Part shown: one piece after another, positions 36,980 through 39,884 of the stretch
How positions within the stretch are numbered: position 1 is the first letter of the stretch
Layout of the letters: the number at the start of each line of letters is the position of its first letter
From: a virus
Direction: 5' to 3' (one strand)
Length of the DNA stretch: 41,017 nt
Virus record (IMG/VR): IMGVR_UViG_3300032020_000022
Coordinates: 1 to 41,017 of that record
Notes under the pieces: model-generated
What the model saw: the letters and a program-made list of their open reading frames with translations, nothing else
What the model was told of the DNA's origin: nothing
Databases searched by the model: none
Made by a program: the position numbers and the translations under genes

Positions 36980-37456
36980 TTATTCCTCCTGTTGATATAG
37001 TAATCCTTTTGGACAAAAATGACTTACATCACAATAACCTTTACATCTTGCTCCTTCCCAACATTCCCTATCATTACAAGGGGTATCATACCTTCCGTTG
37101 AGTAATGCTGATGTAAGTTGGATGGTTTTAAGATTGAAGTATTCATTGACTTGGTTATTATCCAATTTCCTAATTGGTATTCTGTAAGTATTCCTAGTGA
37201 TACCTCTTGATGTGGCTATGGCTAATCCACCATCCCTAACAGTAACTTGTAACTGCATCCTGCCAATAGTTATTCCTCTCTCCTCCAACATTATCCTGTA
37301 GCGGTTGAGTTGCATTTCCTCTTCCCAATTATCTGCCTTGTCAACCATTTGCTGGAATACTGGCACCATCTTAGGGTCTCCAGCCTTGCCCCACTTACCT
37401 GATGAACGGTATAATCTCGGCACCATTTCAGTTCCACATTTAGGACACTTTGGCAT
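36980..37456 (-). CDS. Cas4-like PD-(D/E)XK nuclease, C-terminal half (split gene)
   Basis: 158 residues: WEEEMQLNRYRIMLEERG (44-61) holds the RecB-family QLxxY motif, then MQLQVTVRDGGLAIATSRGI. A Cys cluster follows (C127, C132, C138, C142, C148), resembling the iron-sulfur region of Cas4-like nucleases. The catalytic D/DYK residues are missing because they lie in the 157-aa product encoded at 37907-38380; an HNH gene sits between the halves. The new N terminus MPKCPKCGTEM carries a CxxC knuckle. Probably works with the other half in trans. Nearby GGAG motif before the ATG is weak; coupling to the HNH gene is likely. Confidence 0.78.
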   Translation of the reverse strand: MPKCPKCGTEMVPRLYRSSGKWGKAGDPKMVPVFQQMVDKADNWEEEMQLNRYRIMLEERGITIGRMQLQVTVRDGGLAIATSRGITRNTYRIPIRKLDNNQVNEYFNLKTIQLTSALLNGRYDTPCNDRECWEGARCKGYCDVSHFCPKGLLYQQEE

Positions 37457-37907
37457 TTAACTCCTCCATAGCCTTATTGTAGCCAGCCTGGAGTCCCTCA
37501 CTATAACCTAATGTATAGCTAGGACTATGCTTTTTCCTTTCAATAACTCTAAGGTTTTCTGGTCTGTTATCTAACTTATCACCATTGATATGGTGAACTA
37601 TCTCATTAACTTTTAATGGTCTACCTAGAACTTTCTCCATGATTAACCTGTGTTCTAAATACCGTTTGCCTTTTATTCTTGTAGTCATGTAACCAAAGTT
37701 ATTGACATGCCTTCCACCTTTCCATGTAGGATGATGTTCATTACTTTGTATCCTCTTACCCAGTATTAGAGCCATTGAATATTTACCTGCACATGACCTA
37801 CAAAAACCAATATATTTTGGGTTATTCAGTAAATCTTTCCTGACAGGTCTGATTTTACCACACAGTATACATGGTTCATCTACATAATATTTGGTATGTG
37901 TTGCCAT
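37440..37907 (-). CDS. HNH homing endonuclease
   Basis: 155 residues. Zinc finger CILC...CRSC (13-39), then HPTWKGGRH, EHRLIMEKVLGRPL (85-98) and NEIVHHINGDKLDNRPENL (101-119) with H105, H106, N108 and N114 of the HNH site; the C terminus has a small helical DNA-binding repeat. The start overlaps the stop of the nuclease N-terminal half (TAATG) and its end overlaps the start of the C-terminal half by 17 bases. It has been inserted into the nuclease gene, splitting it. Confidence 0.92.
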   Translation of the reverse strand: MATHTKYYVDEPCILCGKIRPVRKDLLNNPKYIGFCRSCAGKYSMALILGKRIQSNEHHPTWKGGRHVNNFGYMTTRIKGKRYLEHRLIMEKVLGRPLKVNEIVHHINGDKLDNRPENLRVIERKKHSPSYTLGYSEGLQAGYNKAMEELNAKVS

Positions 37908-38380
37908 TATTTATCTCCTGGGCTACAGTGCGGACAATAGTAGTCTGGTTGTTTACCAACTTCAACTATACCCAAAGCTCTGGCTACCCTATAGCTACCC
38001 CATAGTTTATAATCGGTAAGGACTAAATGACCATCCTCCAATTCTAATAGGTCAAATATATCCCTATCAATACTGAGGGCTATTTCTGCTGGTAATCCTA
38101 GTTCCTTAGCAGCCAATTCTAGCTGTTGATGGTGCCTAATACCTGCCAACATAAAGGCACGCTTATCAGGATTAACCGTGTAGGGTTGGGTCAGTTTGAG
38201 GAACTCCATCATGGTGCCATTAAGTAGTTGGGTAGTGCTAGGAACTCCTTTCCATTCCCGTTCTGTGGATATGATGGTTAATGTTGGTAGTGTAAGACAC
38301 CGTTCATCCATTCGGCATTTGGATAAACAATCCTTGATTGGGATTATTTTATTATCTGGACATTGGAACCATTCTAACAC
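37907..38380 (-). CDS. Cas4-like PD-(D/E)XK nuclease, N-terminal catalytic half (split gene)
   Basis: 157 residues, GTG start with AAGGAG upstream. N-terminal Cys region FQCPDNKIIPIKDCLSKCR...RC, then PSTTQLLNGT, GIRHH (H83/H84), FDLLELEDG (D110) and VLTDYKLWGSY (D123, K125): the full PD-(D/E)XK catalytic set. Intact relatives continue into the QLxxY/Cys region that is here encoded separately at 36980-37456. This half ends with a CPHC knuckle and stop right at the HNH gene. The enzyme likely resects or trims DNA ends for the neighbouring recombination proteins. Confidence 0.8.
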   Translation of the reverse strand: MLEWFQCPDNKIIPIKDCLSKCRMDERCLTLPTLTIISTEREWKGVPSTTQLLNGTMMEFLKLTQPYTVNPDKRAFMLAGIRHHQQLELAAKELGLPAEIALSIDRDIFDLLELEDGHLVLTDYKLWGSYRVARALGIVEVGKQPDYYCPHCSPGDK

Positions 38381-38399: not shown

Positions 38400-38742
38400 T
38401 CCTTCTAGGATGAGGGCTGGGACTAAGCTGATTTCTCAGGGGTAACCCAGACTGATTCAGCTAACAAGGATTAACTGTCCTCCGCTACTCAGACCCATTT
38501 ATCAATGGTGCAATTCTTTCTGCCATCCTCACCCTAGCTTTGCCTGAGCCTACTCAGCTTAAAAAAGAATTTCGGCTCAGGCTCTTGCCAGCTAGTGCCG
38601 TAACTTCGCCCACTTTCGCTTACGGAGTCTTTCATCCGCAGCTTGCTGCCCTTTCAGGTAGCTGGCAAGCTCGCTGGCTCGGCAAACTTCCCCTGTTTCT
38701 ACGCCGATACTCTCAGGACACCAGCGAGCATTTATTTAGTTG
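38400..38742 (-). ncRNA. Candidate structured RNA, about 340 nt
   Basis: Gene-free interval inside the early operon, more GC-rich than its neighbours and packed with long stems. Plus-strand positions: 38405-38415/38527-38537 (11 pairs, one G-U only if the minus strand is the RNA); 38542-38550/38574-38582 (9); 38584-38594/38659-38669 (11) enclosing 38598-38603/38620-38625 (6) and 38638-38642/38645-38649 (5); 38669-38677/38721-38729 (9) enclosing 38679-38683/38703-38707 (5); small stems 38495-38499/38504-38508 and 38426-38431/38457-38462. On the minus strand GAAA loops occur at 38612-38619 and 38649-38658. It does not match tRNA, tmRNA or RNase P signatures I know. Confidence 0.65.
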
Positions 38743-39153
38743 TTAAGGTCTAGTAATCTCTTTATTAAAGGCATCTACCGCAGCTACGACACCATCATTT
38801 AACTTGGTAGCTTTCCTATTAACCTCATCTACTCGTTGCCATATTAGTGCCAGTTCACCCTTAATCCATAGACGCAAGTTGTCTATGGCATCAGATACTT
38901 CACCAATAGACTTGGTTAACTCTGCTCTTTTGGCTTCAACCTCTTTAGCCATTCCAGCTATCTTGGCATCAGCCACCCTAGCAGCTTCACCAGCCGCCTT
39001 CTCACCAGCTAACCTTGCTGCCATAGCCGCTTCTTTTGCCTCAGTTGTTGCCTCCTCTGCCTTTTGAGTTAGGTCTACCATCCAGTCCAGAATTGATGGC
39101 AAGGGCTGTGTCATTACCTGCTCTGACGCTCTCTTTTTCCGTTCCTCAACCAT
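38743..39153 (-). CDS. Alanine-rich coiled-coil protein, 136 aa
   Basis: Residues about 28-85 form a long Ala/Glu/Lys helix (EEATTEAKEAAMAARLAGEK), then LRLWIKGELALIWQRVDEVN, a second helix. Likely a coiled-coil oligomer. No catalytic motif. AAGGAGG upstream. The gene stops one base before the structured RNA begins, so the two share a transcript. Confidence 0.7.
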   Translation of the reverse strand: MVEERKKRASEQVMTQPLPSILDWMVDLTQKAEEATTEAKEAAMAARLAGEKAAGEAARVADAKIAGMAKEVEAKRAELTKSIGEVSDAIDNLRLWIKGELALIWQRVDEVNRKATKLNDGVVAAVDAFNKEITRP

Positions 39154-39164
39154 TTATATCCTCC

Positions 39165-39884
39165 TTATTTCTTGATATGGAACACACTGTCATCATCTTT
39201 GGTAACCATACCTGCCGCCTCTAGTGGTGGAATGAATGTTCCCTGGATAATACTGTTGACAAGGTTACTATCACCTTTAACTACTGGGTCCTGGAAAACA
39301 ATATTATTCCACTGTTGCTGGGTCTTACCATCCAATAGGTTGATGGCTTGTTGGATAGGTGTTATTGAGGTAATACCAACCGTAGCACCAGCCTTTCCCT
39401 TCTTTGGTGTAGAACCAGCACCTTCAACACTAATTACTTCCCAACAATCTCTTGGTGTTTCGGTGTTAGTATCCGCATTCCACATCATATGTCCTGGAGT
39501 TATTTGCCATTCCTGAACTTTACCAATTAGAAAGTCTTGGTTCTTTACCTGGCTCTGTGGTGCGTTCTCATCCAAACCAGCATTGATAACCTTGTCTATT
39601 GAGGCACCAAGAACACCCATAGCACTCTTAACCCTATTAGAATGTAGTAGGCTGACTTGGGCTATTGGGAATGGATAAGGTTCGCTGGACTCTATAACCT
39701 CAAGTTCAGAGAAGGTATAGACAACCTCTAATCTGGGTTGTGGCATCTTACCTCTCTTGACCATGCTACCTGTGATAGAATCCAATTTCCCTTTGAAATG
39801 CCTCAGTGGTGTTCCAAATCCTCCTGTCTCATAACCTCTGGTTCTAAGTTGGTCTATTACCTGTTGCTGTGTTAATTCACTCAA
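39165..39884 (-). CDS. Early-region protein, 239 aa, possible ssDNA-binding or recombination protein
   Basis: TTG start with AAAGGA upstream, overlapping the stop of the 52-aa gene (TTGA). N-terminal third has alternating strands (FKGKLDSITGSM, RLEVVYTFSELEVIES) that would suit an OB fold; the C-terminal 60 residues look like a small winged-helix (WNNIVFQDPVVKGDSNLVNSI). Position before the nuclease and ATPase genes is where phages often place an SSB. No diagnostic motif, so the assignment is tentative. Confidence 0.6.
   Translation of the reverse strand: MSELTQQQVIDQLRTRGYETGGFGTPLRHFKGKLDSITGSMVKRGKMPQPRLEVVYTFSELEVIESSEPYPFPIAQVSLLHSNRVKSAMGVLGASIDKVINAGLDENAPQSQVKNQDFLIGKVQEWQITPGHMMWNADTNTETPRDCWEVISVEGAGSTPKKGKAGATVGITSITPIQQAINLLDGKTQQQWNNIVFQDPVVKGDSNLVNSIIQGTFIPPLEAAGMVTKDDDSVFHIKK

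Follow-up and report, generated by a model that had tools for sequence, protein, structure and literature searches.

Gene neighbourhood of the RNA

The window analysed in this work is the whole of a viral record (G000) of 41,017 bases. Between 31.3 and 41 kb, the genes of the minus strand make up an operon, whose products include a family-A DNA polymerase, a methylase, a probable Sak4-like protein, and a split nuclease. Given the further minus-strand genes at 0.1-6.8 kb, and provided that the record is circularly complete, the operon would start near 6.8 kb. The RNA described here is located ~9 kb into this presumed early operon.

Two minus-strand genes are located upstream of the RNA. The gene of a 239-aa protein (39165..39884), whose homologues lie directly 5' of the RNA in most relatives, is followed by the gene of a 136-aa coiled-coil protein (38743..39153), for which one relative was found (L022). 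The AlphaFold model of the 239-aa protein consists of beta-barrel strands and a helical C-terminus (pLDDT 77). The model has no significant match in the PDB, and its resemblance to SSB/OB folds is weak. No relatives of this protein were found among cultured phages, and the DNA polymerase and terminase have distant relatives only, in mixed phages. A strong promoter-like site (TTGACA-17-TATGAT with an extended -10) at 40242-40214 on the minus strand precedes both the RNA and the 239-aa gene.

The gene downstream of the RNA encodes the N-terminal half of a nuclease-like protein (157 aa, GTG start, 37907..38380, minus strand), and its ribosome site is located 3' of the last RNA domain, with the Shine-Dalgarno sequence outside the fold. 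The initial annotation had placed the interval between a coiled-coil gene and a split nuclease, and both flanks were named correctly. The nuclease is truly split: the proteins of 157 aa and 158 aa correspond to residues 27-207 and 212-353 of a single protein in L073, and a free-standing HNH gene (37440-37907) separates the two pieces within 36980-38380 of the window. Both pieces exhibit extra Cys-rich tails at the break (YYCPHCS and MPKCPKCG), as though both ends had been refitted. No tRNA is located near the RNA in the window or in most of the related loci.

The interval itself is gene-free and GC-richer, as had been described: its minus strand contains no ORF of 60 aa, and the 500-nt bin at 38501-39000 has 47% GC, compared with 36-45% in the remaining 500-nt bins from 31 kb onward.

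Domain organisation of the RNA

On the minus strand, the element was refined to begin at 38747 with the leader, where it overlaps the UAA stop of the preceding gene, and to end at 38405. Four closed domains (D1, D2, D3, and D4) are arranged in series, separated by a few nt at most, and their long perfect closing stems consist of 9, 10, 9, and 11 pairs, respectively. The large multi-domain RNA that had been proposed for this strand is borne out by covariation and lack of coding in the homologues and by the lack of an Rfam match. The minimum free energy (MFE) of the 343 nt in the window is -124 kcal/mol, whereas dinucleotide shuffles average -106.7 +/- 5.0 (z -3.4; 0/100 as good). The folding z-scores of individual trains of domains in related phages vary from -0.5 to -4.6, so the case for the RNA rests on comparison and not on energy.

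D1 (38669..38729, minus strand) consists of P1 GCUCGCUGG (38729-38721)/CCAGCGAGC (38677-38669) and P2 UCGG (38707-38704)/CCGA (38682-38679). The copy in the window scores 71.5 bits by the R1 covariance model, whose training set includes it. The usual layout of D1 among the phages is P1 GCUUGCUGG/CCAGCAAGC, followed by UGUCC, the conserved UAUCGG, and CCGA adjoining P1. P1 is changed to GCUUGCCAG/CUGGCAAG in L020 and L061, and it is replaced by GGGUAG/CUACCC in L060, where the inner motif is kept. A pseudoknot was proposed on the minus strand between UCCU (38718-38715) and AGGG (38694-38691), that is, between the strand 3' of P1 and the loop between UCGG and CCGA. The pairs differ by phage: CCU/AGG in the window, CCA/UGG in L047, GUGG/CCAC in L042, and CUCAG/CUGAG in L008. 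Partners from the same phage pair better than swapped ones (0/1000), and the within-sequence shuffle gives p 0.10. These tests moderately support the putative pseudoknot in D1.

D2 (38585..38668, minus strand) consists of P1 UUGCCAGCUA (38668-38659)/UAGCUGGCAA (38594-38585), the P2 hairpin CCU-GAAA-GGG (38658-38649), which contains the GAAA-type loop that had been noticed, and P3 CCGUAA/UUACGG. It scores 56.1 bits by the R2 covariance model, in which the copy in the window was likewise a training sequence. Across phages, P1 is UGCCAGCUA/UAGCUGGCA and the GNRA hairpin is mostly CCC-GAAA-GGG. The sequence of the third helix varies by phage and its pairing is kept in many (alignment read by eye), for example ACAAGA/UCUUGU in L025 and GGGAGAC/GUCUCC in L036. 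Long inverted repeats, perfect or near-perfect, are located near D2 in L037 (~11400) and L025 (~2000) (TACTGTCTAGGCAGTA copies; GCCCTGCGGAGCCCCGG/CCGGGGCTCCGCAGGGC).

D3 (38542..38582, minus strand) is closed by GCCUGAGCC (38582-38574)/GGCUCAGGC (38550-38542) in the MFE structure. A D3 module is also found between D2 and D4 in L064 (stem GCUUGAGC/GCUCAAGC), L067, L079, L084, L102, and others. D4 (38405..38537, minus strand) is closed in the MFE structure by P1 CUAGGGUGAGG (38537-38527)/CCUCAUCCUAG (38415-38405), which is the 11-bp stem with one G.U pair on the minus strand that the initial annotation had pointed out. An equivalent stem that differs in sequence is found in 17 other trains; it is highly variable and has the ends GGGGU and GCCCC in most. 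A common short tail is located 3' of D4 in L084, L086, and L087, where a small hairpin and then GGCUGAUGAGG (or a similar sequence) lead up to the ribosome site. In L086 and L087 the tail contains a hammerhead-like CUGAUGAG but no matching core, and a hammerhead was rejected.

Homologues and modularity

The first homologues were obtained from loci fetched via the nuclease, where the RNA is found in the same gap or elsewhere. Further loci were obtained using DNA patterns of D2 and D1 and the pattern of leader plus D1. Covariance models were built for D1 (R1, 8 sequences) and D2 (R2, 15 sequences); among 39 related records, R1 finds D1 in 24 and R2 finds D2 in 28. Set aside were 10 of the 22 D1-pattern matches and L030 (chance matches inside genes), the matches of a loose structural regex (mostly chance stems), and a few reverse-strand R1/R2 matches (palindromic echoes of stems). 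The family has copies in ~45 places in related viral contigs.

A sample chosen without regard to the RNA consists of 19 loci with relatives of the 239-aa protein and includes no contig from the R1 training set. R1 matches in 14 of the 19 (E 1e-10 to 0.005), with D1 downstream of that gene. Among the other five, L106 ends at a contig border, and D1/D2 are absent in L094, L100, L103, and L104. The DNA similarity search against 50,697 phage records gave no match, the host search with a strict D2 pattern gave 0 matches in 84,980 genomes, and the host search with a narrower upstream-protein alignment (A5) gave 0 relatives.

The domains are combined in different ways. Full trains of leader-D1-D2-D3-D4 are found in L084, L086, L043, L088, and L102. 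D3 is absent from the trains of L045 and L065, and L067 has an additional D3-like stem. D2 occurs twice in L023 with differing P1, D1 occurs twice in L088, and L061 has D1 modules at either end. L101 has only D1-D2, and D1 stands alone in L022, L042, L047, L050, and L057. The length ranges from 60 nt for a lone D1 to >560 nt. A tRNA (Rfam RF00005, 36 bits) fills the D1 loop within the closing stem on the same strand at L080:4902-4982. A tRNA-like sequence (28.1 bits, just under gathering) with a ~93-nt insert is found at L095:3292-3439, directly 5' of the RNA train.

The RNA copies are found in both early and late operons, before differing downstream genes. Their intercistronic position directly 5' of a ribosome site would suit a cis-acting post-transcriptional element that blocks 3'-5' exonucleases or RNase E, sets defined processing points between the cistrons on either side, or tunes downstream translation. 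The long, mostly perfect stem that closes every domain would suit it as well, and phages without D1/D2 can carry other, unrelated strong hairpins in the same gap (L009/L094, L010/L103, and L015). Simple hairpins would suffice for such a role, however, and the conserved putative pseudoknot, the GNRA hairpin, and the common leader would be superfluous. The change in downstream gene identity argues against gene-specific translational control. The free Shine-Dalgarno sequence in the window is a further point against such an element. We consider a post-transcriptional role unlikely.

Conservation of the structure

Paired substitutions are found in the closing stems of the homologues, most clearly in D4, and the interval is non-coding in the homologues with its structure conserved. 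Pairs changed on both sides amount to 6 of 9 in D1, 5 of 10 in D2, 7 of 10 in D3 (from 6 distinct rows only), and 9 of 10 in D4. The D3 and D4 stems were chosen as the strongest at their place, which inflates their percentage paired, so that the evidence for these two domains consists of position and substitution pattern. On this strand, the stems contain G.U in 22 cases and A.C in 8, with some selection bias in D3/D4. On either side, 35 of 38 copies of the RNA run in the same direction as the neighbouring gene.

The occurrence of the domains at different places and their duplication in L023 and L088 would also be expected of a DNA-level element, such as origin hairpins or a recombination or transposition site, or of a mobile sequence without RNA function. 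The excess of G.U over A.C, the GNRA loop, the same-strand tRNA in D1, and the orientation with transcription all argue against it; moreover, the closing stems covary and the duplicates diverge. A DNA-level explanation is thus highly improbable, and a conserved, multi-domain structured RNA family is almost certainly real.

The boxA-like leader

The leader CUUAACAACUAAAUA is located at 38733..38747 on the minus strand, directly before D1, and the upstream coiled-coil gene uses its UAA (38745-38743) as stop codon. The 14-nt motif UUAACARYUNAAUA is found at 24 distinct sites in the related phage loci, mostly directly 5' of D1-type stems. The UAA of the leader is the upstream stop codon in many phages including the window, and not in L027, L054, L077, and L079. 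The enrichment test leaves out the loci that were fetched with the leader pattern, because their inclusion would not be fair. UUAACAR is found within 30 nt upstream in 13 of 21 multi-domain trains and in 0 of 8 lone D1 copies (Fisher p 0.003, ignoring relatedness), compared with a background of 0.004 per 27-nt window. The leader motif or a near variant, sometimes before variant stems, also occurs without recognised D1/D2 at L050:1342 and 2360, L066:1080, L063:9344, and L038:3186 (reverse-complement positions).

The leader was compared with the gamma-proteobacterial boxA consensus GYTCTTTAANA (PMC5725501), which may not be that of the host. The leader of L080 (GUUCUUUAACA) is an exact fit, that of L027 fits except at one position, and that of the window differs at 4 of the 10 specified positions, keeping C4, T6, T7, A8, A9, and A11. 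Many leader copies depart from boxA 5' of UUAACA. On this resemblance, the leader is probably a boxA.

BoxA has been reported to shield untranslated RNA from Rho in rRNA and CRISPR arrays (PMC12691694). In a rival reading, the leader would do no more than shield the RNA from Rho, and the train would be cut from the operon transcript to act in trans as a stable scaffold or a binder of ribosomes or host factors, like GOLLD and ROOL. The leader stands before long trains only, which is what polarity protection predicts, and the complex multi-domain fold, the conserved sequence inside helices, the tRNA inside D1 of L080, and the tRNA-like sequence just 5' of the L095 train are consistent with such an RNA. 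The variation in domain number, down to a lone D1, is unlike one defined particle. In addition, most copies are embedded between operon genes without a promoter and terminator of their own, and no Rfam model of the GOLLD/ROOL kind matches. A trans-acting RNA is a rather doubtful reading, but the main rival to the one favoured below.

Terminators behind the RNA

Strong intrinsic terminators are found within 280 nt behind 3 of 45 RNA copies (L027, L074, and L080), compared with 2 of 300 random pieces. In these three late-operon copies, the RNA is followed by a strong terminator (-16 to -17 kcal/mol plus a U-tract), a ribosome site, and ATG. The U-tract is ~25 nt from the next ATG, with the ribosome site alone between them. 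The next gene depends on read-through in these loci, because the terminator precedes the ribosome site and there is no room for a promoter. They are the only strong terminators in the leader of a gene among all related phage loci examined. The genes behind the terminator in L080 encode a probable scaffold and a major head protein, and sigma-70-like promoters were identified by eye upstream in L027 and L080.

The order in L074 is D2, leader, and terminator. Its 99% relative L109 kept the leader and terminator in the absence of D1/D2, which suggests that the domains may be dispensable for read-through. L110 and L112 have neither leader nor terminator. These arrangements suggest that genes of this class are indeed under read-through control and that the leader accompanies the terminator.

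No strong intrinsic terminator was found within 280 nt behind the other 42 of 45 copies, which could thus at best act on Rho or pausing. The operon of the window is a similar case: its RNA has no strong intrinsic terminator downstream, and the favoured mechanism would likewise be limited to Rho or pausing there. The lack of a terminator to antiterminate in most copies is also in favour of a trans-acting RNA.

Proposed role in transcription elongation

We tentatively favour a modular, cis-acting RNA of transcription elongation (antitermination). In this mechanism, translation of the upstream gene would end inside the boxA-like leader UUAACARYUNAAUA, and the nascent RNA would fold into independently closed domains (the pseudoknotted D1, the GNRA-capped junction D2, and the stems D3 and D4). 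The leader and domains would make RNA polymerase termination-resistant over the untranslated stretch and beyond, and the downstream phage genes would thereby be expressed. The leader is presumed to work as a boxA (NusB/S10 site), the domains to contact the elongation complex, and the early-operon copies to act like the late-operon ones. For the copy in the window, which lacks a strong downstream terminator, the mechanism has weak support.

The position of the leader before multi-domain trains, the read-through arrangement in the three late copies, and the operon orientation are consistent with antitermination, as is the existence of canT of Tn916, a cis antiterminator of comparable size that consists of RNA only (PMC11658703). 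On the other hand, a terminator behind the RNA can simply be the RNA's own 3' end, the RNA in the window lies deep inside the presumed early operon, and the leader is often off boxA 5' of UUAACA.

A fuller version, which we hold as speculative and somewhat doubtful, is that the boxA-like leader loads Nus factors where upstream translation ends and that interchangeable modules turn the polymerase into a form that reads through over long distances, in early as in late operons. The number of modules would set strength or specificity, and one module would host a tRNA. If antitermination is true, this is a phage RNA system that gains and loses modules like beads and provides a natural series on the control of polymerase by nascent RNA. 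The comparative set is defined by two covariance models and ~45 copies, and it suits deciding between cis antitermination and a trans-acting ornate RNA.

Comparison with known systems

The Rfam 15 covariance models gave no match at gathering in the whole window, and the interval searched at E up to 10 gave only a chance sR32 match (8.7 bits). The 17 related loci gave none except the tRNA inside D1 of L080, and the L088 train gave none. These results are consistent with the initial annotation, in which no known class had been recognised. Since no Rfam match points to a group I/II intron or to HEARO, these readings were rejected. In the open-licence literature, the nearest kinds are GOLLD/ROOL/OLE and put/EAR/canT, none with this architecture. 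The family is uncatalogued, in that no Rfam family, annotated-phage DNA, or host genome matches it. A structured RNA family this large with mix-and-match domains is unusual.

GOLLD and ROOL adjoin tRNA islands, and the linkers of GOLLD can contain tRNAs (PMC12286853). Like these large ornate phage RNAs, the new RNA has no assigned function, and it is associated with a tRNA in L080 and a tRNA-like sequence in L095; however, it is smaller and modular, has a variable domain count, lies inside operons, and has no Rfam match. The likeness to large ornate phage RNAs that had been suggested holds for a large multi-domain RNA of no known class. The variable independent modules, the boxA-like leader, and the three relatives directly 5' of intrinsic terminators indicate transcription control at least as much as a GOLLD/ROOL-like RNA.

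The canT RNA of Tn916 is a structured RNA that acts in cis on transcription elongation and was tested as a 452-nt intergenic fragment (PMC11658703). Together with conAn2 of pLS20 and EAR of the B. subtilis eps operon, it is likewise a structured RNA belonging to a mobile element or an operon, compared here with the new RNA by description. The boxA-like leader and the early and late phage positions are new here. To our knowledge, no train of repeated closed modules has been described for canT, conAn2, or EAR.

The put RNA of phage HK022 consists of adjacent stem-loops and allows polymerase to pass intrinsic and Rho-dependent terminators without a phage protein (PMC9378689). It is ~70 nt long, consists of two stem-loops, and lies behind early promoters, whereas the new RNA comprises 60 to >560 nt, is mostly mid-operon, and has a leader. 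Compared by description, the new RNA also differs from put in its putative pseudoknot and GNRA-capped junction. The boxA of rRNA operons and nut sites has the core UUUAACAA in common with the new leader, and both precede untranslated RNA. The new leader differs from boxA in adding a conserved YUNAAUA that is joined directly to the first stem.
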